Below are positions 10,975 to 30,800 of a stretch of 64,000 nt of DNA, in pieces. Position 1 is the stretch's first letter, and each line of letters starts with the position of its first letter. This DNA comes from a virus. The notes under the pieces are model-generated. The model had not been told where the DNA came from and made no database searches. It saw only the letters and a list, made by a program, of their open reading frames with translations. The stretch is from positions 157,096-221,095 of IMG/VR virus record IMGVR_UViG_3300045999_010033; one strand, written 5' to 3'. The translations under genes and the position numbers were made by a program.

Positions 10975-12609
10975 TTAGAGAGTATGTAGACCCTCAACCA
11001 CAATCTTGCCATAGAATTCCGGACGGACTATCTTCTTAGCGTATCTCGTCATAACTCCACGACGTGGTGTGAAGTTAGTCGGGTCATACACAAGCGGAGT
11101 CATAATCAAAGGCACATATGGTGCGTAGACAGCTCCAGTTTCGAAGAAGTTAGAACCTTTGAAACCAAGAAGGATAACGTTCTCAGTCATGTATGGGTTT
11201 TTGTAAACATCATACCTGTTAGAGATTGAACCTACATTGGTTACACCAGCTGCAAATTGAAGAGCATCTTTACCAGGGTTAGCTGAGAAGCCATTCATTG
11301 ATTCGAGGATAGTACATACATCCGGGCTAGCCACGATGAAGTTTGCACCACCACGCATTGTCAACTGATGGATTTTGTTTGATACCTTTTGAAGTTTGAT
11401 ACCAAGTGTTTGATACCAAGTGTTCTTTTGGTAAGCGTTTGCAGATATAGTAGCAGAATCAGGTGCGAAAAGACCGGTTGTTGAATTGTAGTCGTATCCT
11501 ACTCTTGCAGACCAGTAATCAGTAGTCAATGCGTTAGCCTGAAGCATCTCAAGAATTTCCAAATCAATCTCAAGAGAGATGTATTCAGAAAGCATCTGAG
11601 TCAATTCAGCTTCTGCGTCGATACTGTGGTATGCGTTAAGGTCTTGCGCCAATTCAGGAGTCCAAACTGCTTTCAACTTACGAGTTTTAGCAACGATTGG
11701 TTCTGATTTGAGTTCAAGCTCAATTTCAGGAATACCAACATCAGCACCAGTTCTATCTTCAAAATCACCTCTTGAAGTAGCGGTTGGTTGTTTGTGATAA
11801 GATACTGTTGCAGTTGCACCATCGGAAAGGAATGCAGCAGTAGATCCAGTTACAAAGAATTCAACAAAGTTTCCGTTGATATTTGTGTATTGTGGATATA
11901 GTGTGACAGAGCCAGATGTAAGTACAAACGCTCTAACACCATTGAAATCCATTTCGGAAAGAATTGATGAAGATACTGCTACCTTCTTAATACCACCTGC
12001 TGCAACGGATGCTGAAAGTGCGTTTGAATAATCGGTATCTGCCCAAGATGCACTTGTTACAGTTACTCCTGCACCTATACTTCCTGTACCGATTGTTACA
12101 CTAACATCGTTGATGGAATATCCGAAACGACCAGGGCCATAAAGACCTTCTTCTGCTACTTGAGTAGAACCAAGTTTGTTACCTGCAGGTGAAAGAGAAT
12201 CTTTACCAACGGTACCACCTTTACCGAACATTGAAGAACCAGAGAATGCTGGCTTACCTGCTTGGTCGGTTGAATACTTGAAGTCCATGTAGAAGATAAG
12301 ACCTGAAGGTAAGTTCATCGGCTGTACAGAAACGAATTCTTTTGCAGCGATGCTACCAAAGATACGTCTTACAAGCGGAAGAGCTACACCTGCCCATTCT
12401 TCAGAACCAGCTGCGAAGCCAGTCTTTGTTGCTTCATCAAGAAGCTGCTTAGCTTGGTTTTCAAGCAATACTGCCATACCATGCTTTTGTGATTCAGAAC
12501 CTGCTCCTTCAAGAAGGCCTGTTTTTTCCCATTTGGATTTCAAACCCCTAGTTTGCTCAAGCATAATGCTTTGCGGGTTTGCACCATTCATTAATTTTTT
12601 TAAGTCCAT
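10975..12609 (-). CDS. Major capsid protein, gp23-like
   Basis: 544 residues from MDLKKLMNGANPQSIMLEQ. I use this ATG rather than the longer frame from 12678 because the longer one runs into the scaffold gene, and this start has a clean A-rich leader (repeated CAAAA). T4 gp23 features are clear: an LKSKWEKTGLLEG helix, an ENQ-containing segment, then LLDE59-A60, which corresponds to the gp23 maturation site, then LVRRIFGSIAAKEFVSVQPM, matching the conserved gp23 VQPM segment. The first 59 residues are therefore expected to be removed by the prohead protease. It forms the capsid shell. Confidence 0.93.
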   Translation of the reverse strand: MDLKKLMNGANPQSIMLEQTRGLKSKWEKTGLLEGAGSESQKHGMAVLLENQAKQLLDEATKTGFAAGSEEWAGVALPLVRRIFGSIAAKEFVSVQPMNLPSGLIFYMDFKYSTDQAGKPAFSGSSMFGKGGTVGKDSLSPAGNKLGSTQVAEEGLYGPGRFGYSINDVSVTIGTGSIGAGVTVTSASWADTDYSNALSASVAAGGIKKVAVSSSILSEMDFNGVRAFVLTSGSVTLYPQYTNINGNFVEFFVTGSTAAFLSDGATATVSYHKQPTATSRGDFEDRTGADVGIPEIELELKSEPIVAKTRKLKAVWTPELAQDLNAYHSIDAEAELTQMLSEYISLEIDLEILEMLQANALTTDYWSARVGYDYNSTTGLFAPDSATISANAYQKNTWYQTLGIKLQKVSNKIHQLTMRGGANFIVASPDVCTILESMNGFSANPGKDALQFAAGVTNVGSISNRYDVYKNPYMTENVILLGFKGSNFFETGAVYAPYVPLIMTPLVYDPTNFTPRRGVMTRYAKKIVRPEFYGKIVVEGLHTL

Positions 12610-12628
12610 TTTGTTTTGTTTTGTTTTA

Positions 12629-13777
12629 TTACTTAATAATACCAGCCAACTTCTTAAATCTATTTGCGAAGTCAGCATTTTCAGAAATTACTTGCTTTTG
12701 TTGAGCAGCGGTAGGTTTTGTTGATTTAACCGCTCTACTTGCAATACCTTCAGCGATAGCCTTTTTAGCAACTTTAGATACTGATGTGTACTTAAAGTTT
12801 TCTGCCAATGTAGAATATACTAATTTGACTTCTCTAACTGATTTTGTTCTATCCAAAGTTTCGATAACTTTAACCTTTTGCTCGTTGGTCATGTTATGTG
12901 CTCTGAACAATTTGTTTGCGAAAAGAAGTTTAGCGTTTAGAAGATTTACTTCATTGATAGTGCCCTGAAGTGATTTGATTGCCTTGTATGCTTGGTTAAG
13001 TTCGGATTTCAACTTTTTGTTTTCTTCCACTTTCTTTTCCATTTCATCATCATCTGCATCGGTCATATCAGCTTCCATTTCACGAAGAATTTCTTCTAAG
13101 TCAATGGTATCATCATCTTTTGCAGTATCATCTTCATCTTCTTCACTAACAACTACTTTTGGGTCTTCACCTTTATCGGTGCCGGCCTCTTCACCATCGG
13201 CTAGGGATTCCATAGCCATCTGGTCATCATCTTCATCTTCAGTTGATTCTTCTTCTGCGAGTGATGATTCCAATTCTCTAATGATTGATTCAAGATCCAT
13301 ATCATCTTCATCATCATACGCTTCTTCTTCATCTCCGGTGATTTCGTATTCCTCATCATTATCGGAATCAGTGTCATCGTCACCGAAATCCATATCATCG
13401 TCGCCGAAATCCATATCATCGGTATCATCTGTGTCTTCTTCTTCAGTAAGATCTTTTACTTTAGAATAGTCATCAAGTTCAGAACCGGGTTCGCCGGATT
13501 CGGTTTCAGTAGAACCACCTTCGAATTCGGTATCGGCATCATAACCCGAAGGTTCTTTCATGTCACCTGCACCGATTTCAGATGAATCTAATTCCTCGGT
13601 CTTCATTTCTTCTTCATCATCGCTCATTTCGGCTTCTGCTCTCAATTTTTGAGATAGAATTGATTGGAGGCGTGGAGTGAAGGCTTCTTCAAGAGCGAGT
13701 TTAGCATTTGCCAAAGCAGTTTCTTTAACGGCTTTAGCATCAGCAATTGCTTGCTTTAACAATTTTGAATTTGCCAT
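12629..13777 (-). CDS. Prohead scaffold (core) protein, gp22-like
   Basis: A 382-residue, strongly acidic protein. Residues ~50-230 are long runs of Asp/Glu/Ser, followed by a helical region (KKVEENKKLKSELNQAYKA) and a C-terminal RFKKLAGIIK. An acidic helical scaffold directly upstream of the capsid gene is the T4 gp22 arrangement. T4 gp22 is shorter (268 residues); the excess is the acidic repeat region. It should fill the prohead and be degraded by the protease before packaging. Confidence 0.85.
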   Translation of the reverse strand: MANSKLLKQAIADAKAVKETALANAKLALEEAFTPRLQSILSQKLRAEAEMSDDEEEMKTEELDSSEIGAGDMKEPSGYDADTEFEGGSTETESGEPGSELDDYSKVKDLTEEEDTDDTDDMDFGDDDMDFGDDDTDSDNDEEYEITGDEEEAYDDEDDMDLESIIRELESSLAEEESTEDEDDDQMAMESLADGEEAGTDKGEDPKVVVSEEDEDDTAKDDDTIDLEEILREMEADMTDADDDEMEKKVEENKKLKSELNQAYKAIKSLQGTINEVNLLNAKLLFANKLFRAHNMTNEQKVKVIETLDRTKSVREVKLVYSTLAENFKYTSVSKVAKKAIAEGIASRAVKSTKPTAAQQKQVISENADFANRFKKLAGIIK

Positions 13778-14922: not shown

Positions 14923-14926
14923 AAAC

Positions 14927-15178
14927 TTAATGTAATTTTTGTTTTTCTCCTTTAATATAAGAAATAAATGCATTCATTGATGATGAATCTCTAAATACTA
15001 TTTGTTTCTTATCTTTATCGTAACTTTTTATATCTCTTTGAATTTGTGCCAACGCAGGATTTTGATACATTGTAGATAGTGTTTTCCATACTCTTTCCCA
15101 TACTTGCGGGTTTTGAATTGTTAGTGTACTATCGGTTGCCCCATCATTTGCGTTATAATCAAATTCTTCTTTTATTTT
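14927..15178 (-). CDS. Out-of-frame continuation of the 15172-15588 gene (-1 frame)
   Basis: An 83-codon frame, KIKEEFDYNANDGATDST through NPQVWERVWKTLSTMYQNPA to GEKQKLH, that looks coding throughout but has no ATG, GTG or TTG near its beginning. It opens at the ten-A run that ends the upstream gene and stops four bases before the ferritin ATG. A -1 slip on the A-run would fuse it to that gene (about 220 residues in total). The only internal ATG gives a 47-residue protein from 15070, which would leave clear coding sequence untranslated. Either programmed frameshifting or a homopolymer length error explains it. Confidence 0.6.
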   Translation of the reverse strand, partial: KIKEEFDYNANDGATDSTLTIQNPQVWERVWKTLSTMYQNPALAQIQRDIKSYDKDKKQIVFRDSSSMNAFISYIKGEKQKLH

Positions 15179-15588
15179 TTTTTTAGTCCAAGCCTTTCTT
15201 GCATTTGCTCATGTGAAATATCGGCGATTTCAAAATATCTTCCGAGAACGTGTCCCATATCTTCATATAGGGCTTCAAGTCTTTGTTCTTGCTGATGTGC
15301 TATACTTGATTCTTTTTCAAACTTTTCTTGTAAGGATTTTAATTCTTTCATATTACGTTTGATAGTAACACGGTCAAACCAATCTCCACCCTCTCTCAAT
15401 GTGTATTCTTGTGCAGCATCTGCAATAGCACCAAGTGTTTCGGCAATTTGACGAATATCAGATTTACGATTAATACTTTCTCTATGTGTGCCGAATGTAG
15501 ATATTATTTCCAAAAAGTGTTTTTTAACTTCGGAAGGTAATTGTTGAAACTCTTCGGATTCTTTCAGTAAATCTTTTAATCGTATCAT
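15172..15588 (-). CDS. Head-operon protein with capsid-targeting leader, frameshift candidate
   Basis: 138 residues in the primary frame. It starts MIRLKDLLKE, the shared leader ending L-K-E, followed by a charged helical protein that ends GLKKK at a run of ten A's. The leader suggests targeting to the prohead and cleavage after Glu10. The stop falls immediately after the A-run, and a coding -1 frame continues (see the adjoining entry). The body is alpha-helical and charged; its function is unknown. Confidence 0.7.
   Translation of the reverse strand: MIRLKDLLKESEEFQQLPSEVKKHFLEIISTFGTHRESINRKSDIRQIAETLGAIADAAQEYTLREGGDWFDRVTIKRNMKELKSLQEKFEKESSIAHQQEQRLEALYEDMGHVLGRYFEIADISHEQMQERLGLKKK
15175..15184 (-). 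promoter_or_regulatory. Ten-A slippery run, possible -1 frameshift site
   Basis: The codons CTA AAA AAA AAA TAA contain an A-AAA-AAA slippery heptamer. A -1 shift here keeps the downstream frame open for 82 codons. Eleven A's instead of ten would make one continuous gene. Confidence 0.5.
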
Positions 15589-16190: not shown

Positions 16191-16658
16191 TTATTTTTTA
16201 TGAGATTGGTATCCTTTATTTTTCATCCAATTAGTTAATGCGTATGGATTATCAATGCCCGGCTTATCTTTCATTGCTTTAACGGTTCCTTCCCATCCTT
16301 CGGGTGCCTTTTCGGAAATATTTTCTCCTCTAAATCCACTCATTCCATCTCCTTTCGTATTTCCTTGAAACCCAGCACCTACATCATTTTTTTTTTGACC
16401 GCCGAATGCATCTGCTTGCTTAATCTTTTGGATAGCCCTCATTACTTCTTGCTTATCCATATTAAGGCCATCAATTATTTTTGCAATTACAAGTACTTCT
16501 TTTTTACGAGGAAGATTGTAAGTTTTTAATTGAGATGTAAGTTTTTCTAAAAATCGGTTTACAGCCGTTGGAAGATTAACATCCAAATCATCAAGTGCTT
16601 CTTTTTGAATTGGTTTTTTATTTTCTTTTATAAGGCCTTTTAGTTTTATTGGTTTCAT
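16191..16658 (-). CDS. Leader-bearing head protein with NWMKNKG C-terminal module
   Basis: 155 residues. The N-terminus MKPIKLKGLIKE ends I-K-E, fitting the leader pattern. The C-terminus has PEGWEGTVKAMKDKPGI and then NPYALTNWMKNKGYQSH, a module found at the C-termini of many T4-like marine phage proteins. A weaker relative of the NWM-NKG ending is on the 60672-61754 protein. The middle is a helical bundle. The function of the module is not known to me. Confidence 0.65.
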   Translation of the reverse strand: MKPIKLKGLIKENKKPIQKEALDDLDVNLPTAVNRFLEKLTSQLKTYNLPRKKEVLVIAKIIDGLNMDKQEVMRAIQKIKQADAFGGQKKNDVGAGFQGNTKGDGMSGFRGENISEKAPEGWEGTVKAMKDKPGIDNPYALTNWMKNKGYQSHKK

Positions 16659-16678
16659 ATTTTTTGATTATTATTTTA

Positions 16679-16951: not shown

Positions 16952-16970
16952 TTTATTTTTCTTTATATAG

Positions 16971-16980
16971 TATAAATATA
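16971..16980 (-). promoter_or_regulatory. Late promoter-like motif downstream of protease gene
   Basis: Exact TATATTTATA on the minus strand, 20 bases before the 16951 start. Confidence 0.65.
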
Positions 16981-16982
16981 CG

Positions 16983-17573
16983 TTAGTTCAATTCAACAAT
17001 TATTTCACGCATTAGGTCTTGTGCTTTACACCACTTACCACATTCGTCTGCAATTTTCTGCCATTGCTTACTCTCATTCATTGGTGCCATAAATGCTCCA
17101 TGCGTAGACGGGTTCGATACGAAGTCCCAGCCAACCAATTCGAAGTCGTCTTGCACCATTACCGTGCCATCCCTTTGCTCATTAACTGAACCAAGTCCAC
17201 GTGAACTAATACCAAGACGTATATTATTTTTAAGCAATTCTTTTAAGATATTGCCCGATGGTGTTGAAAGAATTTCTACCACTCCACAAACATCATCCCC
17301 TTCCCACCATATTTCACGAATATTGTGTGATACATTTTTAAGCTCGATTACTGGAGAATCCGGATGGTCTAATTCACCAAGTGCACGTCTTTCCTTAATC
17401 AATTGCTTATATTTTTCACACTCACGCTCTAATATCTCTTTTGGATAACGGCGATTGTTTTGATTGGGTGCACCTGCTCTTTGCAAAACGCCTTTAACAA
17501 GAAAAGTACCATTAGATTCTTCTTTGAGTTTTGCTTCGAATAGGTGGGTTTCTATTAATAGTTTTTTATTCAT
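16983..17573 (-). CDS. Prohead core protease, gp21-like
   Basis: 196 residues. The U9/S77-type protease features are clear: RRYPKEILERE, a GELDHPDSP block with the catalytic His, an SSRGLGS block with the catalytic Ser, and a FELVGWDFVSNPSTHGAF block near the end. It matures the capsid by cutting scaffold, capsid protein and internal proteins after Glu in an (L/I)-x-E context. It lies among the genes carrying that leader. Its own N-terminus has HLFE-A, a possible self-cleavage site. Confidence 0.93.
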   Translation of the reverse strand: MNKKLLIETHLFEAKLKEESNGTFLVKGVLQRAGAPNQNNRRYPKEILERECEKYKQLIKERRALGELDHPDSPVIELKNVSHNIREIWWEGDDVCGVVEILSTPSGNILKELLKNNIRLGISSRGLGSVNEQRDGTVMVQDDFELVGWDFVSNPSTHGAFMAPMNESKQWQKIADECGKWCKAQDLMREIIVELN

Positions 17574-17574
17574 T

Positions 17575-17769
17575 TTACATTCTTAATCTACCTTCAGACT
17601 TTGCTTGATATGCTTTGTCTACGGCATTAAAAAATTTCTTTTTTTCTTCGTCACTCATTGAGTTAATATCTTTCCCAGTTTTATCAAGCATAGTTTTGAA
17701 CAATTCTTGATAATCCTGCTCTTCTTTAATTACTTCTCTAACGAGTTCTTTTAGTTGTTGTAAGTTCAT
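17575..17769 (-). CDS. Small head core protein with leader
   Basis: 64 residues: MNLQQLKELVREVIKEEQDY and then a short acidic-basic helical body with MSDEEKKKFFNAVDKAYQAK. This small protein directly upstream of the prohead protease is a standing member of T4-like head operons, in the position of T4 gp67/gp68. The leader ends V-I-K-E. It probably is a prohead core component. Confidence 0.65.
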   Translation of the reverse strand: MNLQQLKELVREVIKEEQDYQELFKTMLDKTGKDINSMSDEEKKKFFNAVDKAYQAKSEGRLRM

Positions 17770-17781
17770 TTTATTGTGGTT

Positions 17782-18192
17782 TTATTCTGATATTTTTCTA
17801 ATATGTTGTTCTAACTTAATCAACCTTTCTTTTATTTTCAAAATGTTTCCATTTGTACGTTTCCAAAATTGGTCATTAGATACTCCGTTTTCTTGCTTCA
17901 ATTTACCATACCAATTTAGAAATTTTTCCATTTCTGCCAATTGCTTATTGATGTTAGAAACGCCTTTACCGATTTTTCGGTGAGCAGGGATATCTTCATT
18001 TTTTAGTTCTAACCAACGATTTTCTTTTACAACGGTATACCCAGTTAGGTCAGCTTGTTGTTTCGCACTTTGCTTTGTATCTCCTCTTTTTTTGAATGCG
18101 TTTGGTGACTGGTATCCTTGAACGTTCCCTGTCACATTCATTTCTCTTACAACCTTTCTTATAAATTCTTTTAATTTACTTTTGTGTTGCAT
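17782..18192 (-). CDS. Leader-bearing protein with GYQSPNAF motif
   Basis: 136 residues. The N-terminal MQHKSKLKEFIRKVVRE matches the basic leader ending V-R-E. It is followed by GNVQGYQSPNAFKKRG and TGYTVV, a combination I recognise from head-operon proteins of T4-like marine phages. The C-terminal half is a charged helical region. It overlaps the upstream gene by 17 bases. Likely a minor head protein, function unknown. Confidence 0.65.
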   Translation of the reverse strand: MQHKSKLKEFIRKVVREMNVTGNVQGYQSPNAFKKRGDTKQSAKQQADLTGYTVVKENRWLELKNEDIPAHRKIGKGVSNINKQLAEMEKFLNWYGKLKQENGVSNDQFWKRTNGNILKIKERLIKLEQHIRKISE

Positions 18193-19048: not shown

Positions 19049-19069
19049 CAAAGGGATAATTTATCTCTT

Positions 19070-19079
19070 TATAAATATA
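19070..19079 (-). promoter_or_regulatory. Late promoter-like motif downstream of portal gene
   Basis: Exact TATATTTATA on the minus strand, 21 bases before the ATG at 19048. It falls in the short gap after the portal gene. Confidence 0.65.
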
Positions 19080-19087
19080 TTTATTGA

Positions 19088-20836
19088 TTATTTAACAGCA
19101 GATTTGGTATCTGTTAGTATTATTTTTTTACCACCAAGCATATCTTTGTATATTTCTTTATAACTTACTTTACGTGGTTTGTATTTTACAGAACCTTCTT
19201 TTTGTTTTAGAGTTTTAATCCCAAGTGGGTCGCGACCAAGTGGATGATCATCTTTACCATATCTAACCGGGTCTTTTGGTCTTCCAACTTTTCCTTCTTC
19301 TTCTAATTCATCTTTAATTTTTTGAATTTCTTCTTCAACATTGGTTGGTTCTTCTGTTCCGGTTTCTTTAGCAGGATCAGTTCCTTGTGTTTCAATTTGT
19401 GTCAATCTGAACGCTTGCTTTGTATCTTCCAATACATCAATTGTCATGTCATCTTGTTCATCTTGCGCAAATTTCATAATATTTTCATACATCCACTTTT
19501 TAGAAAACAATTTTGTTTGTTGCATAGATTGTATAAGAGATACCTTTGATGTATATAATTCTATTTGCTCTTGCTCATATATTTTTGATGGAATAGTAAG
19601 TTCTAATTGAAAATCCAAATCTGCCGCGTTATCCATACCCTGCGCATATAAATGAACTATTGCTATCTTTGTCAATTCGGAAATAAGAACTTTTTGTATT
19701 CTTTCGATGGTTTTGGCGAACCTTACATCTTGCGCTGCCAATGTTGCTTTTCCGTTTACATCTTCTTCATATCCCAAATGTGATTTTGGAATTTTAAGAG
19801 CTGCGAACATTTTTCCTTTTAGGTAGTTGATATCATCTATTGCCTGATATTCCATGCCCTTCAAAGTATCTATGCTCGTACCACTATCGCTACCGCGGAC
19901 AGGAAGATAATAATCCTCAATAATATTTTGAATATTATATTTAAGATTGTAATCTCCGGTTTTTTCATCTACAAATGGTGTTTTTTTACTGCTGTTAATG
20001 ATTCGTTGCATATAATTATCAACTTCAGTTGGTGGTATATTACCAACATCAACTTTGAATATACGTTTTTCGGGAGCACGCATAATACGATGTATTAACA
20101 TAGCATCCTCCATAAGAGTTAGTTGTTTCCAAACCCGTCTTGCACCTTCTATCATTGATTTTCCATAAGGAAGAAAATTAGAATCAGAATGCATTCTGAA
20201 ATGCGCAATTTCATAATTTTCATATTCTTTTTTATTAGAAGCAGAAGACCCTCCGTATGGGTTTGTGTATGGTGCATATACAAACTTTACACGTTGTGGA
20301 TTTTCTATATCAAAGTTTTCAACACGTGTAACTTCATATACCGATATGGGAATTACATTAACAATTCCAAGTTCAGGTGCTACTTCTAATTGTAAAAAGA
20401 AATCACCATACTTTACCAAGTTTCTTGTCCAAGGCCAAAGTGTGAATTCTATGTTTACAATATCATAAAATAAGTTATGAAGAATTTGTTTTACATTTTC
20501 ATCTGAACAATGTATTTTCAGTACATCTCCATGTTCATTTTTTGTTGTACTTTCATCTGCGTAAATATCTAATGCCGCAGCAAGAATAGGGTCATGATCC
20601 ATTGAATCATAATCTCTAAATAGGTCAGCACGAACTTGCTGATACGACATTGCCGATTCCAACATTCCACCACTATATTGTGGGGTCTTCAATTTCATAA
20701 AACGGTCTACAAGGTTAGTCGTCATTGATTGATATTCATCAGTATCAATGACCCTTACGCCCTTTTTAGTTCTACGAATAATTGTGTTTGTAGAAAATAG
20801 TTTTTGTAACCTTCCAAAAATGGTTTTATCTGCCAT
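19088..20836 (-). CDS. Portal protein, gp20-like
   Basis: 582 residues. The layout fits T4 gp20: an N-terminal RRADLFRDYDSMDHDP-like segment (here QVRADLFRDYDSMDHDPILA), a WPWTRNLVKYGDFFLQLEV segment in the wing/stem region, and a C-terminal KIPKSHLGYEEDVNGKATLA block, followed by an acidic and Lys-rich tail. It forms the ring at one vertex through which DNA is packaged and leaves. The upstream gene ends 29 bases away. Confidence 0.9.
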   Translation of the reverse strand: MADKTIFGRLQKLFSTNTIIRRTKKGVRVIDTDEYQSMTTNLVDRFMKLKTPQYSGGMLESAMSYQQVRADLFRDYDSMDHDPILAAALDIYADESTTKNEHGDVLKIHCSDENVKQILHNLFYDIVNIEFTLWPWTRNLVKYGDFFLQLEVAPELGIVNVIPISVYEVTRVENFDIENPQRVKFVYAPYTNPYGGSSASNKKEYENYEIAHFRMHSDSNFLPYGKSMIEGARRVWKQLTLMEDAMLIHRIMRAPEKRIFKVDVGNIPPTEVDNYMQRIINSSKKTPFVDEKTGDYNLKYNIQNIIEDYYLPVRGSDSGTSIDTLKGMEYQAIDDINYLKGKMFAALKIPKSHLGYEEDVNGKATLAAQDVRFAKTIERIQKVLISELTKIAIVHLYAQGMDNAADLDFQLELTIPSKIYEQEQIELYTSKVSLIQSMQQTKLFSKKWMYENIMKFAQDEQDDMTIDVLEDTKQAFRLTQIETQGTDPAKETGTEEPTNVEEEIQKIKDELEEEGKVGRPKDPVRYGKDDHPLGRDPLGIKTLKQKEGSVKYKPRKVSYKEIYKDMLGGKKIILTDTKSAVK

Positions 20837-20865
20837 AGTTAATCTTTATTATATATATACTATTT

Positions 20866-21975
20866 TTACCACTTTCTGCATGACCAGTAACGCGCTTTCC
20901 ATCTTGGGCCAGGATTATCACAGTTGTGTCTAGCTCTGAATGATTTGCGTCTTTCAGGATTTGATTTTTTAATACGCATATTTGGGTCTCCGAAGTTTAC
21001 TTTAACAACGTTACCTTTATCATTTTTAACGTACACTTTAAATTTTTTAACATCACCCTGCATTGGTTTGCCGAGCTTTACTTTTCTACCCTGATATTCT
21101 GCTTCAAAAACGCAACCGCATCCTGCTTCATTTAGTGTTCGGTTATATTCTCTCATAAAGACAATAAAGTCTTTGTAGTCATCATAGTTTTCAACATCGT
21201 ATTCTACGGGTTGAACTCTTCCGTAATTAATTTCGGAATCTTTATCTCTACGTTCGGGATGATCTGGATATTCTTCTTTCATAGCTTTTTGTTTTGATAT
21301 TTCGATAGCAGCCAATTGTTTTTGCGCTGCAGATTTACTTGAATGTGTTCCTAATCGGTCTCCACCTTTCTTTGGATATACTGCGTACTTATCTCCTACT
21401 TTCTTAATAGTTTCTTTAACCGGCTCATATCCTTTTCTCTGATTATCTTTTGTATCGGATTGATATCCTGGCTCTACTTCTCTATCATCATCAAAATCAT
21501 ATGTATCTAATTCGGCAGGATATCCATAATCGGGTGTATATGAAGAACTCTTATGATGATGCAAAAAATTACCATCACCGGTCCCATGTGGTATGTGATT
21601 GCGGGAGTTAATTGCTTCAGAAACCGGTACACAATTTGGAACTTCTTTACCATTTTTGTCTTTCATTCCAACTTGCTTATATCCATCCCAGCATGGCCCT
21701 TCCAATAACTCATCATCATCTTTATCTAATGGATTTTCGACTGGAATACGTCCACTTGGCTGTACCCATCCACCTGCGGAAGGGTCGTATCCTTCATTAC
21801 AAGTACGCCATCCACCACCCTTTGATTTATAGTTTTTTGCAGCCCATCCATTTGCATATGCACTTGGGTAAACATCAAATTTACGTTTTGCCGCAGCCTT
21901 TGATGCTGACCATTTTGCTGGGTCAGTCGGGCAATTCTTTTCTAAAAATAATTCTAATCTTTCTTCTATTGTCAT
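20866..21975 (-). CDS. Multi-module virion cargo protein with internal cleavage-like sites
   Basis: 369 residues made of concatenated small modules: residues 20-60 with KWSASKAAAKRKFDVYPSAY and GGGWR (a DUF5872-like basic module), residues 89-116 with CWDGYKQVGMKDKNGK, a His-rich link, a KVGDKYAVYPKKGG module near 191-230, and a C-terminal basic module with NFGDPNMRIKKSNPERRKS and many Cys/Arg/Trp residues. Boundaries carry LLE92-G, VSE120-A and LNE283-A, the cleavage pattern of the prohead protease. It may be another packaged polyprotein. It lies between the portal and leader-bearing genes. Confidence 0.65.
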   Translation of the reverse strand: MTIEERLELFLEKNCPTDPAKWSASKAAAKRKFDVYPSAYANGWAAKNYKSKGGGWRTCNEGYDPSAGGWVQPSGRIPVENPLDKDDDELLEGPCWDGYKQVGMKDKNGKEVPNCVPVSEAINSRNHIPHGTGDGNFLHHHKSSSYTPDYGYPAELDTYDFDDDREVEPGYQSDTKDNQRKGYEPVKETIKKVGDKYAVYPKKGGDRLGTHSSKSAAQKQLAAIEISKQKAMKEEYPDHPERRDKDSEINYGRVQPVEYDVENYDDYKDFIVFMREYNRTLNEAGCGCVFEAEYQGRKVKLGKPMQGDVKKFKVYVKNDKGNVVKVNFGDPNMRIKKSNPERRKSFRARHNCDNPGPRWKARYWSCRKW

Positions 21976-21976
21976 T

Positions 21977-22618
21977 TTAGTTTACGGATTTAGATTTAGT
22001 ATCACGACCCGCCTGTCGGGCTTTTCTACCTGCACAGTGTGCTTTTTGGCTGAATCCTTTGGGGTTATCGCAATCAATTGATTTTTTGTAGCCTTTTGTC
22101 CATTTTTCATTTAGTCGGTTTTCGTGCTTTATGATTAACTCACCCAATACTTCTATTAGTCCGACCAATCTTTGAAACCCGATTTGGTCCATTTGAACTT
22201 TACCACCACATATTTCTTCCATATAACCATTAAATTCTTCACGAGCATCTTCTAAATTAAAACCGCCTTCGGCTGCTTTTTTATAGTGTGGAAGTTTTAC
22301 AACAAAATGATGATAGGTAAGAATTGCTACTCCACCCTTTTCTTTTGCATCTTTAGTTATTTTAGTAGCACCTTCTAATCTTTTCTTTGCAAAATCTTCA
22401 AAACTTTCTATTTTTGGAGAGTTTGATTTAACTAGATTTGCGGAAGTTTTTTTCTTTTCATCACCATAGGATTTACCCATAGCCTGCCCAGCGGTAGTTT
22501 CTCTTCCAGCTATCGTCACTTTTGTAGATGGACGTATATCATGCTGCTTTGCATAAGCATCAAATTCGGCTTGAGATTTAAATTCTAATTCGTTCAATAT
22601 ATCTTTAAGTCTAATCAT
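21977..22618 (-). CDS. Leader-bearing head protein with Cys-rich basic C-terminus
   Basis: 213 residues from MIRLKDILNELEF. A 19-residue N-terminal extension from an upstream start was rejected because this ATG carries the shared leader and starts right after the upstream stop. The middle is helical; the C-terminus is SIDCDNPKGFSQKAHCAGRK, a module seen repeatedly in T4-like marine phages. An additional LNE-K site precedes that module. Likely packaged in the head. Confidence 0.65.
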   Translation of the reverse strand: MIRLKDILNELEFKSQAEFDAYAKQHDIRPSTKVTIAGRETTAGQAMGKSYGDEKKKTSANLVKSNSPKIESFEDFAKKRLEGATKITKDAKEKGGVAILTYHHFVVKLPHYKKAAEGGFNLEDAREEFNGYMEEICGGKVQMDQIGFQRLVGLIEVLGELIIKHENRLNEKWTKGYKKSIDCDNPKGFSQKAHCAGRKARQAGRDTKSKSVN

Positions 22619-22619
22619 T

Positions 22620-22859
22620 TTATTTAATGGCTTTACCAAACTCTTGTGAAAAGTCCGTATCTTGTGATAAATCAATTGTTTGAACTCGGCACTTTTTACA
22701 TTCGTGTTTTTGTGTAAGTATTTCTATTACTTGTTTAGCTTCACTCATTGATTTAGCTTTTGTAAAAAGTATTTGTTCATCCTTTTTGCCAGGAGGAACA
22801 CCCCAAATAATATATTCAGTTTTAGTGGTTTCTTTTAATATATCTTTAAGTCTAATCAT
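22620..22859 (-). CDS. Small leader-bearing protein
   Basis: 79 residues: leader MIRLKDILKE followed by TEYIIWGVPPGKKDEQILFT, a beta-alpha module, and a CKKCRVQTIDL strand. It is almost identical at the N-terminus to its neighbour downstream. The body looks like a single small domain. Predicted to be cut after Glu10 and packaged; domain function unknown. Confidence 0.65.
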   Translation of the reverse strand: MIRLKDILKETTKTEYIIWGVPPGKKDEQILFTKAKSMSEAKQVIEILTQKHECKKCRVQTIDLSQDTDFSQEFGKAIK

Positions 22860-23200
22860 GTCGGCGGATTATATTTTTTATCACTTCCCTTTTTATCCCA
22901 ACTAACTCTTACTGGCTTTTTACCTTTACTGCCATCACCTTTATCGCCACGTCCTGCTTTGTTTTGTTTTGCACGTTTACGTCTTACGAAACTTGCTCTA
23001 CCTTTTTTTCCAAGCTTTTTTGCCGCTGCCGATGAAAGACATGCCGCATATGCTTCACCTTCTTCGCCGGCTCCACACTTTCCAACACGTTTACCACTGG
23101 AATCATATCTATCCCAGCCACCACCTCCTTTACCTCCCCATTTGCCCTTTCCGAACCACTTACGGAGGTCTTCGTCTAAAAGGTCAAATAGTTTAATCAT
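22856..23200 (-). CDS. Small basic leader-bearing protein, DUF5872-like
   Basis: 114 residues. Leader MIKLFDLLDE is followed by a Gly/Lys-rich stretch (GKGKWGGKGGGGWDRYDSSG), a KCGAGEEGEAYAACL segment and a C-terminal ASFVRRKRAKQNKAGRGDKG. The strongly basic body suggests DNA binding in the capsid. It overlaps the downstream gene by four bases and the upstream one by one base. Confidence 0.7.
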   Translation of the reverse strand: MIKLFDLLDEDLRKWFGKGKWGGKGGGGWDRYDSSGKRVGKCGAGEEGEAYAACLSSAAAKKLGKKGRASFVRRKRAKQNKAGRGDKGDGSKGKKPVRVSWDKKGSDKKYNPPT

Positions 23201-23523
23201 TAGAATACGGAATTGATTTGAGATGAAACCTCTTTACCATACTTTGATTGACATTGTTTCATCAATTCATTATAGATATTTGTTCTCAAATCTATAAGCT
23301 CTTTTGGAGTATGTCCAAACTCTTTCTGCATATCCAACATACTATTCAAAATGTTTTCAAATGCTCCCATTTTCATAAATTTGGCGAACTCAAGTACCGC
23401 TTCGGTATGCGCATTTCTATCGGTTAATTTTTCTATCTTTTTAACGATAGGGTCTACATTGATCGCTTCTTTTAATCCGGTAACTACCTTTGTTTCTGAT
23501 AGTATATTAGTTAGTTTAATCAT
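23200..23523 (-). CDS. Leader-bearing helical head protein
   Basis: 107 residues. Leader MIKLTNILSE is followed by a second possible site GLKE-A at about residue 19, then an all-helical body. It is the first gene of the leader-bearing group downstream of the terminase and has its own promoter-like motif. Function unknown. Confidence 0.65.
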   Translation of the reverse strand: MIKLTNILSETKVVTGLKEAINVDPIVKKIEKLTDRNAHTEAVLEFAKFMKMGAFENILNSMLDMQKEFGHTPKELIDLRTNIYNELMKQCQSKYGKEVSSQINSVF

Positions 23524-23562: not shown

Positions 23563-25167
23563 TTATCCTAATAACCATCTTATATCTTCAATCTCTCCGT
23601 TATTTCCATAAGAAATTTCATATGGGTTATTTTGTAAGTGGTTTTTAGTATAAACACTTTCGTATTGTTGTATTTTAGCCGAACTTAACATAGACTTTGT
23701 AAGGTCTACTCCTTCATTTCTAAGCCTCAATGCAGTATTTCTAACCCACAGTCCTATCGCCATAGCCATTGTCAAGTCATCGTTGTAGCCCTTCATTGCT
23801 TCCGCTCTACCATTAAACCAAATAAATGTAAATAATTCTTCTATCATACGAGAAGACCGTATTAATATCTCTTTTTCTCTAAGATACGTATCTAATGCAG
23901 AAATAATAAGTGGTCGCGTCCTTTGTGTTACCGAAAATCCAGCAACCATCTTGCGTTCCTCACGATAATATTTGTTGGTCATTTGCCTTTCTACATCAAT
24001 GTATTTCAAGTCATTACTCATGTAAAATAGATTACCATATCCACGATTAATGATTTGTTGTATGGCGGCCCAACCTACGTTTGAGTTTTCCACAACTAAT
24101 AGGGCATTATTGTATTCGGTAGCAAGTGAAACTAATAGGTTTCCAAAATCTTTTGTATTGATTTTACCACGATATTCTGCAACTTGTGAGCAATTATCTA
24201 AATCTATAACTTGTGCAGTTGAAAAGTCATTTGAATCACCACGTGAAACGTCCGCAGCAACCATATAGTTTCTTGTATAATCCGGATGTTCCCATCTCCA
24301 TAGGTTTCCATCGAAACCAGTTTTTTCAATTGGATCGATTACCCAAGTTTGCTTATACCACATTAGAAGTTGTGGGTCTATCACAGTATCACCGGAACTT
24401 ACAAAATCACAATCACACTCTTGCGCAGCTCCTTTTACACCAAGAACACGTGTTTGATCATCTCTCCACGTTTGATTTCTTTCAGGGTGCTCTGTCCAAT
24501 GAAGCATTATATTATTGAATCCATTTATTCCACTTTCTCCATCTACCCACATTTTATGAAACCAATTACCAACACCATTTGGAGTTGATAGTACAATAGC
24601 AGAACCACCAGTTGAAAGTGTAGATTGCGCCGATAGCCAAATTTCATCAATATCTCTAATGAACGCTGCCTCATCAATTACAAGCAATGATAGGGCTTCA
24701 GAACGTCCTGCATCAGGAGATGATGTGATTGCTTTAACTTGCGAACCATTTTTTAGTTTAAGAGATAATTTATTATCTTCAACTGATGCGGATGAGCCAT
24801 CTCTCAACCAAATTGGCAAAAGATCGTGCATCACTCTTACTTTTTCTACAAGGTTTTTTGCAACTGTTACTTTTGTAGCAATAACAAGTGCGTTAAAATC
24901 CGCATTGAATATCATTTTCCATAAAATAAATCCTGCGGATAACGTGGATAATCCAAGTTGTCTACTCTTTAAAATTATATTATAACGATTATCTTTAAAA
25001 TCAGTAATACATTTTTCTTGAAATGGAAAAAGGTGAAATGGAATTTTACCACGAGTAGGGTGCTGAATGACACAATACTTTTTCATAAAGTATATTGGGT
25101 CTAATGCACATTTTTTATACTCATCGGCAATTAGGTCTTTCAGGCTTCTATTTGGATTTATTGGCAT
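23563..25167 (-). CDS. Terminase large subunit, gp17-like
   Basis: 534 residues. The ATPase half has a Walker A-type KSRQLGLST (residues 67-75) and Walker B LLVIDEAAF (161-169), and LSTPNGVGNWF as the coupling motif region. The nuclease half has MVAADVSRGDSNDFS (near 312) with the first catalytic Asp and later acidic residues. It packages DNA through the portal and cuts concatemers. The ATG is preceded by A-rich sequence with no Shine-Dalgarno element. The small terminase is not recognisable nearby. Confidence 0.93.
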   Translation of the reverse strand: MPINPNRSLKDLIADEYKKCALDPIYFMKKYCVIQHPTRGKIPFHLFPFQEKCITDFKDNRYNIILKSRQLGLSTLSAGFILWKMIFNADFNALVIATKVTVAKNLVEKVRVMHDLLPIWLRDGSSASVEDNKLSLKLKNGSQVKAITSSPDAGRSEALSLLVIDEAAFIRDIDEIWLSAQSTLSTGGSAIVLSTPNGVGNWFHKMWVDGESGINGFNNIMLHWTEHPERNQTWRDDQTRVLGVKGAAQECDCDFVSSGDTVIDPQLLMWYKQTWVIDPIEKTGFDGNLWRWEHPDYTRNYMVAADVSRGDSNDFSTAQVIDLDNCSQVAEYRGKINTKDFGNLLVSLATEYNNALLVVENSNVGWAAIQQIINRGYGNLFYMSNDLKYIDVERQMTNKYYREERKMVAGFSVTQRTRPLIISALDTYLREKEILIRSSRMIEELFTFIWFNGRAEAMKGYNDDLTMAMAIGLWVRNTALRLRNEGVDLTKSMLSSAKIQQYESVYTKNHLQNNPYEISYGNNGEIEDIRWLLG

Positions 25168-26504: not shown

Positions 26505-29500
26505 TTATTCATAAAATATTCCTAAAAGCTGATTTAATGGAGCGAATGTGCCTGTAAGTTTATAAGTCTTTCCGTTATAAACAAATACAATACCTTCTGC
26601 TGCTACTATTTTATCTACCCCACCCAATGAGTTTAATCTTTCTAATTCGTTTTTGAATTTTTTAATTATAGATGTGTCTCCGGTTTGTTTTACTTTTTGT
26701 GCAACTGAATCCAATTTCGTTTTCATAGCACGAATGGCAGTATCGGGGTGCACAGTTATTACTGATGTTACAAATTGTAAAACTTCAGAACCTACTCCCA
26801 AAAATATTTCTTCAAACGGTTTTATATTATCACGTTGTTGTTTTGGAACATTTATCTTATCGTGCTCTATTGTCCAATTTTGCAATGTTTTATCTGATAT
26901 TGTATTTAACCTAAAAGATTTTTCTCCAAATCCCCATCTGCGGATTAGTGCTTCTTTTGTAAGTTTATCGGGCTTAACGGGTGATTGCTTATCTATAAAA
27001 TCTGCCCACCATGCGTAGTGATAATCCGAAACGGAAGCAGAATCAGAAAGTCCAAATTTAGATTGTAGTTTGTTTAATTTTCCAAACCAATATCCTTGCT
27101 TCGATGAAAGCTCTTTACTTTTTGGAAGTTCTAAAACCGGAGGACCTGCTATCGTATATTTGGATTGCACATTTGCGTTGATTTGTTTTATCATGCCTGC
27201 CAATACTCTTGCGCTAGATTGGTCGGCGCTTATTGCCTTACCCGCATCATCATAACACACCGTTCCATGAAATACTAATAATGCCTGTCCGTATGGTATT
27301 ACGTTTACTGATTCTGGCCATATAACTTCAAGATTCATAAAACATTTCCCATTATTAAATATCTTTTCTTTTTGTTTTTCTGAAAGCCCACCTATTGCGG
27401 CGTTAAGGTCTTTCATTGCAAAATTATACGCATCGGTTAATCCACCACGACCTGCAAATTTAGATGCTACATCTTCTATACCCATTGCGTTTGCTCCTGC
27501 ATTTGCAAGATGTCCTTTGTTACGTGCGGCAATCAATCTTCCATTCTTCCAACTTATTGCCAAAGCCTGTCCGTCGGTTTTTTCACGAGCCAATTCCAAA
27601 CGACCACTTAGTGCGCCAGATATAATACGTTTAAGGTCACCAAACGTAAGCCCCATATCATCAAATGGATGTGACATGTGTCCATACGCACCACCTTCTT
27701 GTAATAGAGAAACTATACGATGCTCATATCCTCTTTCACGAATTACATCAACCGGTCTAATTGCCTTTGGTTTTACATATACATCTGGATAAGAGTATGG
27801 GTTTGGTCTTGAATTAAATGGATACATTTCCCATTTATCTGCTTTATCTTTTGCATATGCATCTCCTTTAGATGGATGAATTGTACGTTTAGCAGGTCCG
27901 TTTTCCTCTCTTGGATTATTAACCGGTATATTTTTTGCTGCCTTTTTAGCATCACGTTTTGAACTATATTCTAATACATCATATCCTACTATTTCAGCGT
28001 GCTTTTTTCCATATTTATCGTGCTTTTCCCAATCAGGAGAATATGGAGATCTGAAACTTTCCCCATTACTTGTCCCATCTACTACGGCTTCATTTACAAA
28101 ATTCTTTTTATTGAATTTAGTTGGTTTAAAATCAGTACGTGGTAAGTTCTTAACACGCCAAATTACATATGGTTGGTCTTGCTCATCATCACCGAATATA
28201 GTATCCGCAGTTGGGAAATCAATTTGAATATATCCGCCATTAGTAAACCACTCATCGGATTTATTTATACCATCATTGTTACCCAATTTTCTTTTATATC
28301 CTTTTGGTAAAAACATACCATCGGGTTGGTCATCATTAAATGCACCCTGAATACTTGTTGCTTCGTTTATAATTCCCTCTTGGAATATCTTTTTATTAAT
28401 CTTACCATATTCACGCATTAGTATTCCGGCCACCGCATGGGCTTTATTTTCAACAGAAGAGCCAGTCTTACCATCCTCTGCCCTATCTTTAATAATGCCC
28501 ATTTCATCTTGCTTACGATGTACCATTTCATGCGCAATCGTTCTTAAAATATCGGCAGTTAGGCGACCTTCGGTTGAAACGAATATTTCTTTTGTATTAT
28601 CATCGTATCCACCAAGAGATGTTTGTGATTCTGCGAACTCACCACCACCTACTAAATTGATTTTAGGTCTTTCATTTAGTTTCAATCGCTTTGTAGCATA
28701 TTCAACGAAATGATTTATTGATTCGGTTTTACTATCCAATGCATCTTCGGTTTCTCCGGTTTCGGGATTGTGATGTGAAAACGTTTTGTGCCAAATTTTA
28801 GATTTTTCTATTGCCCTTGCAGGATTAAGTTTATCTATTTTTTGTTGTGGTGATAATCTTCTATTAAACATTCCGGTAGCAGGAACATAATGTTCTTCAT
28901 TCAATAAATCTGCTGCGTTTCTTTTTGGTTCTTCTTTTTTATAACTTTTTATAGATTGTAATAATTGCGCATCGGTTAATTTGTATGTTTCTACACGTTT
29001 AATAACTTTTTCTAAAAAGTTTATTATAAATTTATTGTTACCATCTTGGGTTGATGAAATTTCGAACAAACCCATTGTTGCAGTAGATAGTGCCGCACCA
29101 CCACCCGCTGCTTGCGCACCACCAAATCCCAATGTTTCAAGTGCAGCATGCTTCACAATATCTTTTCCCAAATGAATACCAAACCCACCAAATCCATGTG
29201 TAAAAACACCAACTGAACCTTGTGCTGCTGCACTTGCAACTCCTAACGCACCTTGACCAGCGCTAACCGCTTTGGCCGCCGCTACACCTGCGCCACCTAA
29301 CATCATAGACCCCATTAACAATCCAACATCAATTGCAAAATGTTTGACATGATGTAATTGTTCTTTTCGTTTTTCATCGGAATAATCCCACTTTCCGGTT
29401 TGCTTATTTTTTACAGAACCAATCTTTTGTCCATTAGCCAATGCTTTAACTGCATCAACAGTTCCACCAATCATTTCTTTTTTGTGATGCGCCCACTTTT

Positions 29501-30800
29501 TTATTCCTTTACCAAAACCTTTAATGGCAGATTTTAATCTGGTCATCATTCCTTTTCTCTCCGGTGATTGTGGATTATTTATTTGTTCTATTGTTTTAGT
29601 TTCTTCATCAGATAACTTACTTTTTTCCGAATCCAATTGAGTTTTAATTTCTTCTTTTTCTTTTTCTGATTCCGGCTTTTCGGCATTTGTTTTAAAATCA
29701 GAACCTGATAGTTTATTAGGGTCTTCAGTTGGCTCTTCTGCTCCTGTCGTTTTTGGCTCTGAATCACTTGTGGGCTTTTCTGAAGCCGGTTTCTTTTCTT
29801 GATTGGTAGAGGCAGATGGTTCTTCTTTTGATGATGTCTTTTTATCTTTGCCAGTAAGCTTTTCTGCCTCTACGTGAGCTGGATGATCTTTGGCTAATCT
29901 AAGAGCTGCTCTTACTTTTATTTTTTTCTTTTCTCCTGCGGCGTTTGTATATTCAATTTCTTTATCCATTATAGGATTTTCCGATTCTGCCTCACCTAAA
30001 TAATTTGAAATAAAATCATTAAATATATCTTCGGCGGCAGCTCTTTCTATAATTGAAAAAATTGGATTGTATAATTCTGTCTCATCAATTGTTCTAAATG
30101 TAGTTGCCTGCTTTCCGTTTATGGTTGGCATTCCATGAGAATCTGATGATATATCTTTTACTTTCACCTTTTTGTTTTTGAATTTACCCATAAGAACGTT
30201 ATCTCCGACATCAACTCCTACTTTAATATTTTCACCGATTAATCGTTTTCTAATTAGGTCAAAAATACCTTTATCAAATTTTGAATATACTTTTTTAAAG
30301 TATTCTATGGCAGTTTTTTCATCTGCGCCACCAATATTTTTTCTTACATCAGTTCCACTAATTGCTTCTGCTTGTGGCGGCACTAAATACGTGTATCCAA
30401 TTTCTTTATAACCATAGCCCGCTTTACCACGATATGGTTTAAAATATGAACCACCTAATCTTTCTGCATCTTTTTCTCCAACTGCTGCAACGTATTGTGT
30501 AGTATCGGCATCAAACTTACTTAATATTTCAACTGGATTGTATGGATTTTTAACCATAACAAATCTATTAGCTGGAATATCAAACATTGTAGTTGCTATC
30601 TTTTTCTTTTCTTTAAAGTTAAAAGGAGATTTAGGTTGGGAAGTCGTATTTGAAGACCCAATGAAAACGTTACCAGCACCAAACTTACTAACTAAATTTT
30701 TATATGCTGCATAATGCCCTTTGTGGAATGGTTGAAATCTACCACTATATACTACTATTGTTTTTTTTACTTTTGGTTTATCTACTTCTGTTATATTCAT
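26505..30800 (-). CDS. Polyprotein: NMNAT-like, metalloprotease-like and ligase-like domains
   Basis: 1431 residues. Domain 1 (1-190): GRFQPFHKGHY (HxGH at 26-29) and ISGTDVR (148-153), nucleotidyltransferase motifs of NMN adenylyltransferases. Residues 191-270: a small beta domain (VGDNVLMGKFKNKKV). Residues 271-630: a Glu/Lys-rich linker and a Gly/Ala-rich hydrophobic stretch (~487-580), perhaps membrane-active. Residues 640-813: a metalloprotease-like domain with AHEMVH (HExxH at 757-761). Residues 1036-1431: a ligase-type nucleotidyltransferase with KTDG (1074-1077), RNKG, EGIV (1402-1405) and KTYKLTG. (L/I/V)-x-E sites E190, E270, E635, E813, E904 and E1035 lie at the domain boundaries. 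It probably is prohead cargo cut into separate enzymes. Its activities are inferred from motifs. Confidence 0.8.
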   Translation of the reverse strand: MNITEVDKPKVKKTIVVYSGRFQPFHKGHYAAYKNLVSKFGAGNVFIGSSNTTSQPKSPFNFKEKKKIATTMFDIPANRFVMVKNPYNPVEILSKFDADTTQYVAAVGEKDAERLGGSYFKPYRGKAGYGYKEIGYTYLVPPQAEAISGTDVRKNIGGADEKTAIEYFKKVYSKFDKGIFDLIRKRLIGENIKVGVDVGDNVLMGKFKNKKVKVKDISSDSHGMPTINGKQATTFRTIDETELYNPIFSIIERAAAEDIFNDFISNYLGEAESENPIMDKEIEYTNAAGEKKKIKVRAALRLAKDHPAHVEAEKLTGKDKKTSSKEEPSASTNQEKKPASEKPTSDSEPKTTGAEEPTEDPNKLSGSDFKTNAEKPESEKEKEEIKTQLDSEKSKLSDEETKTIEQINNPQSPERKGMMTRLKSAIKGFGKGIKKWAHHKKEMIGGTVDAVKALANGQKIGSVKNKQTGKWDYSDEKRKEQLHHVKHFAIDVGLLMGSMMLGGAGVAAAKAVSAGQGALGVASAAAQGSVGVFTHGFGGFGIHLGKDIVKHAALETLGFGGAQAAGGGAALSTATMGLFEISSTQDGNNKFIINFLEKVIKRVETYKLTDAQLLQSIKSYKKEEPKRNAADLLNEEHYVPATGMFNRRLSPQQKIDKLNPARAIEKSKIWHKTFSHHNPETGETEDALDSKTESINHFVEYATKRLKLNERPKINLVGGGEFAESQTSLGGYDDNTKEIFVSTEGRLTADILRTIAHEMVHRKQDEMGIIKDRAEDGKTGSSVENKAHAVAGILMREYGKINKKIFQEGIINEATSIQGAFNDDQPDGMFLPKGYKRKLGNNDGINKSDEWFTNGGYIQIDFPTADTIFGDDEQDQPYVIWRVKNLPRTDFKPTKFNKKNFVNEAVVDGTSNGESFRSPYSPDWEKHDKYGKKHAEIVGYDVLEYSSKRDAKKAAKNIPVNNPREENGPAKRTIHPSKGDAYAKDKADKWEMYPFNSRPNPYSYPDVYVKPKAIRPVDVIRERGYEHRIVSLLQEGGAYGHMSHPFDDMGLTFGDLKRIISGALSGRLELAREKTDGQALAISWKNGRLIAARNKGHLANAGANAMGIEDVASKFAGRGGLTDAYNFAMKDLNAAIGGLSEKQKEKIFNNGKCFMNLEVIWPESVNVIPYGQALLVFHGTVCYDDAGKAISADQSSARVLAGMIKQINANVQSKYTIAGPPVLELPKSKELSSKQGYWFGKLNKLQSKFGLSDSASVSDYHYAWWADFIDKQSPVKPDKLTKEALIRRWGFGEKSFRLNTISDKTLQNWTIEHDKINVPKQQRDNIKPFEEIFLGVGSEVLQFVTSVITVHPDTAIRAMKTKLDSVAQKVKQTGDTSIIKKFKNELERLNSLGGVDKIVAAEGIVFVYNGKTYKLTGTFAPLNQLLGIFYE

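Follow-up and report, generated by a model that had tools for sequence, protein, structure and literature searches.

A candidate modular head cargo polyprotein with prohead-protease-type sites at its module borders in a T4-like phage

The window, a stretch of 64,000 nucleotides from a T4-like phage, contains a head gene cluster that includes a long open reading frame (ORF) (table 1). The ORF at 26505–30800 had been described in the original prediction as a single chain of 1431 residues, and this was confirmed (minus strand, ATG start). The product of the prohead protease gene was aligned to T4 gp21, with GELxHP and SSRG conserved, and the alignment of the major capsid protein places LLDE-A (hyphens mark presumed cleavage points) where T4 gp23 is cleaved. 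The 369-aa precursor consists of segments that match phrog_27331 (residues 23–50), phrog_9737 (79–123), phrog_3684 (177–261) and phrog_7595 (292–369) and that are encoded as separate leader-bearing genes in relatives. The module of the ORF at 22856–23200 is also found inside the polyprotein of relative L021, where it follows QINE. The same genome encodes a nicotin(amid)e phosphoribosyltransferase and a PRPP synthetase; these NAD salvage genes are located elsewhere and carry no leaders.

Table 1. Features of the head gene cluster and of the 1431-aa ORF (window coordinates).
Feature	Coordinates	Strand	Basis
Major capsid protein	10975..12678	-	phrog_138, 9e-74
Small head ORF with leader MIRLKDLLKE-S	15172..15588	-	
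Small head ORF with leader MKPIKLKGLIKE-N	16191..16658	-	
gp21-type prohead protease, presumed processing enzyme	16983..17573	-	phrog_207, 5e-54
Small head ORF with leader MNLQQLKELVRE-V	17575..17769	-	
Second, smaller mosaic precursor, 369 aa	20866..21975	-	segments match separate PHROGs, sites in between
ORF with leader MIRLKDILNE-L at internal start	21977..22675	-	
Small ORF with leader MIRLKDILKE-T	22620..22859	-	
Small ORF with leader MIKLFDLLDE-DLRKWFG	22856..23200	-	
Small ORF with leader MIKLTNILSE-T	23200..23523	-	
Whole candidate cargo precursor, 1431 aa	26505..30800	-	ATG start; relatives
Ligase-like domain, residues 1036-1431 (KTDG, LEVIW, EGIVF, KLTG)	26508..27695	-	motifs, relatives
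Module 905-1035, ends at LLQE-GG	27696..28088	-	relatives; low pLDDT
Module 809-904, ends at FVNE-A; second site INE-A at 813	28089..28376	-	relatives; low pLDDT
HExxH zincin-like module, residues 636-808, ends at IFQE-G	28377..28895	-	H757EMVH
Residues 271-635, end at LLNE-E	28896..29990	-	sequence and model
Short helical segment, residues 241-270, ends at YLGE-A	29991..30080	-	pLDDT <50 at 234-274
Mobile "KFKN" beta module, residues 191-240, between sites 190 and 240	30081..30230	-	recurrence in relatives
NMNAT-like nucleotidyltransferase, residues 6-190, ends at RLIGE-N	30231..30785	-	profile, PDB and Foldseek matches
Short N-terminal leader MNITE-, residues 1-5	30786..30800	-	pLDDT <50 at 1-4

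The 1431-aa chain carries motifs of several unrelated domains (NMNAT, zincin-like and ligase-like), and the motifs that had been predicted to occur together were all recovered (H26KGH, S148GTDVR, H757EMVH, K1074TDG, E1402GIV and K1411TYKLTG). The N-terminal module matches PF01467 (1.9e-5), phrog_395 (1e-14), the archaeal NMNAT 1f9a in the PDB (1.8e-7) and, by Foldseek, NadD/NadM; it displays the GRFQPFHxGH and ISGTxxR motifs and the nucleotidyltransferase fold of the archaeal/NadM type. It is classified here as NMNAT-like; motifs alone do not predict the substrate. Standalone NMNAT genes in two relatives (L017 and L018) stop at the point that matches site 190. The KFKN module was identified in 55 distinct occurrences and starts exactly after hydrophobic-x-Glu in 48 of them, with a non-hydrophobic P3 in five of the 53 scorable occurrences; a tblastn search of phage records with this module (53 aa) returned no matches. 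After the site that corresponds to 270, the module is a different one in three relatives (L003, L035 and L036). Residues 271–635 comprise a small beta module, a disordered linker (319–371) and a Gly/Ala-rich hydrophobic helical region. The HExxH module, which contains HEMVH and a downstream ENxAxA, matches an IrrE-N-like BFVD model in a Foldseek fold search (7e-8) and, weakly, jannalysin in the PDB (E = 0.37), and it stands alone in L028 and L029. The module at 809–904 is placed elsewhere in the chain in L005, L016, L034 and L036, and the counterpart of module 905–1035 is relocated in L032, L038, L045 and L056.

The "ligase-type" label of the C-terminal domain holds as far as the motifs, which are present, and its identity goes no further than these. 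Motifs I (KxDG), III, IV (EGxV) and V of the covalent nucleotidyltransferases occur in order, III and V being assigned by eye, and the K, D, G, R, E, EG and KLTG positions are invariant in the alignments. Relatives of the domain were detected in at least 543 viral contigs, and standalone genes with leaders occur in L018, L027, L073, L084, L085 and L090. None of the Pfam, PHROGs or NCBIfam models used names the family. Pfam RNA_ligase gave a weak match in one of 13 members (E = 0.069), a PDB sequence search yielded spurious ribosomal-protein matches only, and a fold search with the C-terminal model, which is of low confidence over 813–1047, found no ligase and returned weak zincins as top matches. 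Kinship to T4 RNA ligase 2 was tried with hhalign, with that ligase alone or as a 5-member profile, and dropped as too weak for a claim (Rnl2 profile, five members: E = 0.027, probability 1.8%, motif I in register). The domain probably repairs nucleic acid, and this is the weakest step of the interpretation.

The six (L/I/V)-x-E sites listed in the original prediction (190, 270, 635, 813, 904 and 1035) are all present, four of them followed by Ala or Gly, but the list overlooked site 5 (MNITE-V), site 240 (TIDE-T, where 55 alignments end) and site 808 (IFQE-G, the conserved partner in the 808/813 pair). The number of sites was ruled out as evidence within a single protein because it does not exceed chance: the chain contains 16 [LIV]xE matches (18.4±3.7 in shuffles) and four [LIV]xE-[AG] matches (3.1±1.8). 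It is the position of the sites that carries the evidence, with seven out of eight homology borders lying no more than eight residues from [LIVFM]xE (random mean 1.9, P = 0.00025). The predicted location of the sites between domains agrees with the AlphaFold models, in which pLDDT falls below 50 at nearly every border site (residues 1–4, 191–194, 234–274 and 625–640 in the N-terminal part; 626–648, 813–968 and approximately 995–1047 in the C-terminal part), and an attempt at refutation by searching these models for border sites buried in domains failed. The low values over 813–1047 may stem from a shallow alignment and not from disorder; residues 813–1035 are homologous modules that lack a confident fold, and 904 is hence a border by homology only. 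Approximately ten further hydrophobic-x-Glu matches sit inside well-folded domains, where cutting is not expected, and matches at 944, 1022 and 1224, outside the cited set, also lie in low-confidence stretches.

A comparison with approximately 90 related viral ORFs revealed the same modules in changed orders, joined at junctions that bear a site of the T4 protease type. The P1 residue is Glu in 66 out of 68, 37 out of 37 (KFKN) and 16 out of 16 (HExxH border) distinct deduplicated contexts at three module borders, P3 is mostly aliphatic (Leu/Ile conserved) and P2 is free. Cleavage may not be universal, given that P3 is non-hydrophobic at some borders and P1 is Cys at two ligase borders. One of the three patterns used to scan contigs for the ligase contained [EC]GG at the ligase border, a possible bias, but 92 of the 93 ligase ORFs also match a scan pattern without this border. 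Hydrophobic-x-Glu is enriched approximately 4.5-fold at alignment breakpoints, whereas the control motifs (hydrophobic-x-Asp, -Lys or -Gln/Asn and polar-x-Glu) show no enrichment there. Modules are also found as genes of their own that carry a T4-like capsid-targeting leader (MIRLxKxLxE), and the split L073 and fused L083 constitute a natural experiment in which the split form gains such a leader. Hydrophobic-x-Glu is present in 46 of 51 distinct N-termini of relatives; the leader of the clade to which the window protein belongs measures merely 5–6 residues, compared with about 10 in split genes and in sister polyproteins (e.g., MNELSQFLVE-). The cassettes between the NMNAT and ligase-like ends range from 29 to 1353 residues.

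From the modules, sites, border conservation, leaders and protease, all evident at the level of sequence, we infer that the 1431-aa precursor would be cleaved, packaged and injected. It is quite likely that the gene encodes a head cargo polyprotein that is cut by the gp21-type prohead protease and whose products are delivered with the DNA. The long precursor would enter the prohead core, where the protease, encoded 9 kb downstream, would cut at roughly eight hydrophobic-x-Glu sites in linkers (5, 190, 240, 270, 635, 808/813, 904 and 1035), in each case after the Glu. The products freed within the head would be the NMNAT, one small beta module, one hydrophobic helical stretch, the zincin-like domain, two more small modules and the ligase-like domain, and they would leave it together with the DNA. 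Relatives reshuffle or drop the modules or encode them separately, each with a capsid-targeting leader, and fusion would therefore spare each module a leader of its own. Because the genome encodes the phosphoribosyltransferase and the PRPP synthetase, the NMNAT, with a predicted NMN adenylyltransferase activity, probably completes NAD+ salvage. Processing of a head cargo precursor by the prohead protease, as originally predicted, is backed by border conservation that does not depend on context, by split and fused pairs, and by the gp21-type protease and T4-like capsid genes of the cluster.

Alternatively, the chain could be an uncut multidomain ejection protein similar to the N4 virion RNA polymerase, with linkers that retain the fossil leaders of gene fusions. 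An internal fossil leader does occur in L108 (SIEMIRLKKILKEVLLKE-GG), and the N4 enzyme is packaged without processing (PMC5512222). However, fossils should decay, yet the P1 Glu is kept in nearly all of the contexts counted above while adjacent linker residues vary, and breakpoints show no excess of the control motifs, which makes this explanation unlikely. Cleavage of the chain by its own HExxH domain is very improbable: among polyvalent proteins of phages and plasmids no domain is more frequent than the zincin, for which autoprocessing was proposed (PMC5512222), but of the 54 complete relatives that have both NMNAT and ligase, only 21 include the module, which by this comparison is dispensable, the sites persist in the others, and the site type fits gp21 specificity. 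Equally improbable is a cytosolic NAD+/RNA repair multi-enzyme that is neither packaged nor cleaved, which would suit the enzyme-like domains and the leaderless NAD salvage genes but not the location in the head cluster, the capsid-type leaders of split forms and sister polyproteins, or the protease-type borders.

Beyond the single gene, the cargo polyprotein reading extends, with fair though lesser likelihood, to a modular platform in a widespread T4-like phage lineage, in which the NMNAT and ligase-like ends are fixed, the cargo cassettes inside are exchangeable, and the sites act as points of cleavage and at the same time as borders that tolerate recombination. Since the cassettes are flanked by prohead-protease sites, new injected effectors could join this platform even if they lack a targeting signal themselves. 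The production of enzymes as polyproteins is not a known trait of tailed phages. If the reading is correct, the prohead protease takes on a further task, the release of a mixed cargo of enzymes, and border sites offer a means to list injected phage proteins by sequence only, with the relatives of one module already spread over hundreds of contigs. The cargo could then restore NAD+ and possibly repair nucleic acid in the opening minutes of infection, while defences that deplete NAD or cut RNA are active. Literature searches brought up no phage polyprotein that is cut by a head protease, in line with the original claim that the combination has no described example; T4-type processing itself is known, and it is the cargo polyprotein cut at prohead-protease borders for which no published description was found.

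One of the closest parallels is T4, where the protease recognizes L/I-x-E and processing is determined by residues 8 and 10 of the leader (PMC9026906). The internal proteins and Alt and the core proteins gp22, gp67 and gp68 of T4, all processed by gp21, share with the window protein this rule, a gp21-family protease and a head gene cluster (PMC9026906). T4 uses a capsid-targeting leader of approximately 10 aa (PMC9026906), whereas the window protein has MNITE only and its sisters the full form. Packaged T4 enzymes are encoded by separate genes and their leaders are trimmed, and cutting into multiple pieces is limited to scaffold and core proteins whose pieces are mostly lost; the window protein instead joins several enzyme-like domains in a single precursor. 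In phiKZ and SPN3US a relative of gp21 cuts many head proteins after x-x-Glu (PMC10052503), but mainly N-terminal propeptides are removed from single proteins, the specificity is S/A-x-E or A-x-E, and fused cargo is not described for their head ejection proteins in the literature compared. Polyvalent proteins, described from phages and conjugative elements and presumed to accompany the DNA, likewise combine unrelated enzymatic domains in one long chain, often with a zincin (Iyer et al. 2017, PMC5512222). The domains of that study are others, the zincin is the proposed processing enzyme, no NMNAT and ligase-like pairing was found in the passages compared, and prohead-protease sites at every border are not described (PMC5512222). 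The NAD+ restoration protein of Vibrio schizotequatrovirus NARP2 is reported in virus particles, membership in a polyprotein not being described (PMC12028318). A homologue from a cultured phage, Microcystis phage Mel-JY01 (WWT39297.1, "cytidylyltransferase like protein"), fuses NMNAT and ligase-like modules with IIAE-GG at the border and lies in the same head cluster, which also includes a prohead protease, but at 639 aa it consists of the two end modules only, compared with 1431 aa in the window. Finally, the way in which this phage appears to load an injected toolkit and take it apart is much like the polyprotein processing of RNA viruses.

The ORF proposed to encode a polyprotein of head enzymes is intact, contains all motifs and sites cited in the original prediction, and lies within a cluster of head genes on a 221-kb virus record. 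In an alignment, the sequence QLLDE/ATKTG of the capsid protein (slashes mark putative prohead-protease cut points) occupies the position of SFLTE/AEIGG in T4 gp23. In T4, gp21 cleaves after L/I-x-E; the capsid-targeting leaders of this phage have about 10 residues, of which residues 8 and 10 govern processing (PMC9026906). The ferritin-like protein of the cluster is possibly virion-associated, and the repeat region probably encodes a large repetitive structural protein that continues past the window edge.

Features of the window and their positions
Feature	Positions	Remarks
Candidate polyprotein	26505-30800 (-)	1431 aa
Terminase	23563-25167	Head-gene cluster
Series of small ORFs	15172-23523	T4-like capsid-targeting leaders
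Second mosaic precursor	20866-21975	369 aa
Portal	19088-20836	Head-gene cluster
gp21-type prohead protease	16983-17573	Head-gene cluster; aligns with T4 gp21 through GELxHP and SSRG
Ferritin-like protein	14392-14973	Head-gene cluster; PF00210, 2.6e-19; without clear leader
Major capsid protein	10975-12678	Head-gene cluster
Tandem repeats	1-6740	Units of 9-54 bases; G+C above neighbouring stretch

Judged by number in the single sequence, the predicted site pattern is no better than chance: the protein contains 16 [LIV]xE motifs (18.4±3.7 in shuffled versions), four of them followed by Ala or Gly (3.1±1.8 shuffled). Site position was therefore tested using relatives collected in two IMG/VR scans (23 and then 80 loci), in which relatives of the C-terminal ligase-like domain are encoded on at least 543 contigs. 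In 54 complete ORFs, an NMNAT-like domain close to the N-terminus and a C-terminal ligase-like domain enclose a variable set of modules spanning 29-1353 residues. Modules known from the window protein are reordered or absent among the relatives, and GNAT-like and DUF5661 segments are among the additions. Another polyprotein type (loci L019, L021 and L022) combines NMNAT-like, HExxH and P-loop kinase modules (LTE/GINDPG..GGPGSGK).

Hydrophobic-x-Glu immediately precedes the ligase-like start GGxxGH in 93 out of 96 ORFs, irrespective of the upstream module, and lies exactly at the start of the KFKN module (window residues 191-240) in 48 of 55 distinct occurrences. Since the relatives are not independent, the fair figures are those from deduplicated contexts (contexts sharing P12-P7 removed) and from control motifs. 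After deduplication, P1 is Glu at 66/68 ligase, 37/37 KFKN and 16/16 HExxH borders, P2 is free, and P3 is Leu/Ile at every ligase border and mostly aliphatic at the others. The two ligase exceptions (L013 and L082, LLLC/GG) carry Cys at P1 and may not be cut. In an unbiased breakpoint test of 42 non-redundant polyproteins, alignment starts showed a 4.4-fold and alignment ends a 4.6-fold enrichment of hydrophobic-x-Glu, with no comparable peak for hydrophobic-x-Asp, -Lys, -Gln/Asn or polar-x-Glu; Ex[LIVFM] and [LIVFM]xxE were also raised, as tandem sites such as NE/SLLLE/ predict. In the window protein, a site is found no more than 8 residues away from seven of eight homology borders (P=0.00025). 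The main rival explanation is an ejection protein that stays uncut and whose linkers are fossils; the persistence of P1 Glu at the borders speaks against it.

Modelled with AlphaFold in two parts (residues 1-640 and 626-1431), the protein has sites 5, 190, 240, 270, 635, 813, 904 and 1035 within or adjoining stretches of pLDDT <50; these include the six originally cited (190, 270, 635, 813, 904 and 1035). Site 808 is at a helix end, and matches 64, 109, 700, 710, 797, 1141, 1293 and 1331 are inside confident folds; residues 813-1047 were unmodelled and have no assigned fold.

The ligase-like domain is fused in L083 (..QSVKE/SLLKE/GGAYGH) and a separate gene in the near-identical L073, where it starts MIRLHKILNEVLLKE/GGAYGH, a leader of the type found on small ORFs in the window head cluster (MIRLKDLLKE/, MIRLKDILKE/, MIKLTNILSE/). 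A leader-pattern search of the window's genome gave six matches, whereas the forward strand and a reversed control gave none; in the fetched loci, position 10 of ORFs starting with the pattern is Glu in 38 and another tested residue in two. Standalone leader-bearing modules reappear within polyproteins: the 22856-23200 product matches an L021 module downstream of QINE/, and a leader gene elsewhere in the window's genome (L110) matches modules in L006, L007, L008 and L054. L108 retains an internal fossil leader, and sister polyproteins carry full 10-residue leaders (MNELSQFLVE/SILGE/A, MKGLAKFLVE/TILGE/A). A purely cytosolic enzyme would leave these capsid-type leaders unexplained. The leader-bearing small ORFs are likely unannotated head cargo. 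Four different PHROGs match segments of the second mosaic precursor; hydrophobic-x-Glu lies between these segments, and relatives encode them as individual leader-bearing genes. In Synechococcus phage S-SRM01 (L029, 4932-8553), an HExxH protein and a cytidyltransferase with a T4-like leader (MKNFHQFITE/A) are adjacent separate genes.

Sites, borders, leaders, protease and gene context are established from sequence. The interpretation that fits them best is that the precursor would be translated as one chain, built into the prohead core and cut at linker sites by the gp21-type protease, and that the pieces would be kept in the head and delivered at infection. Cleavage by the zincin domain itself is unlikely because only 21 of the 54 complete relatives have a zincin. 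The NMNAT-like domain is securely a nucleotidyltransferase of NMNAT type, the HExxH domain resembles minimal zincins/IrrE, and the ligase-like domain has signature residues of the ligase superfamily and gave no significant match in profile and fold searches; their enzymatic activities are presumed. Adjoining a PRPP synthetase gene, the genome carries a gene for a nicotin(amid)e phosphoribosyltransferase (NF006629, 6e-161; G000:C1:27285-28058, L117); neither product has a leader, and the two probably form an NAD+ salvage pathway. NAD+ synthesis would be completed by an NMNAT, and PF01467 has a single other match in the genome, a small TagD-like protein.

Literature searches of an open-access library turned up no mosaic of enzyme modules split by prohead-protease sites, an absence that is no proof of novelty. 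Vibrio phage particles are reported to contain a NARP2 protein (PMC12028318). Each ingredient is already known, from the leaders and gp21 cleavage of T4 and from polyvalent multidomain proteins.
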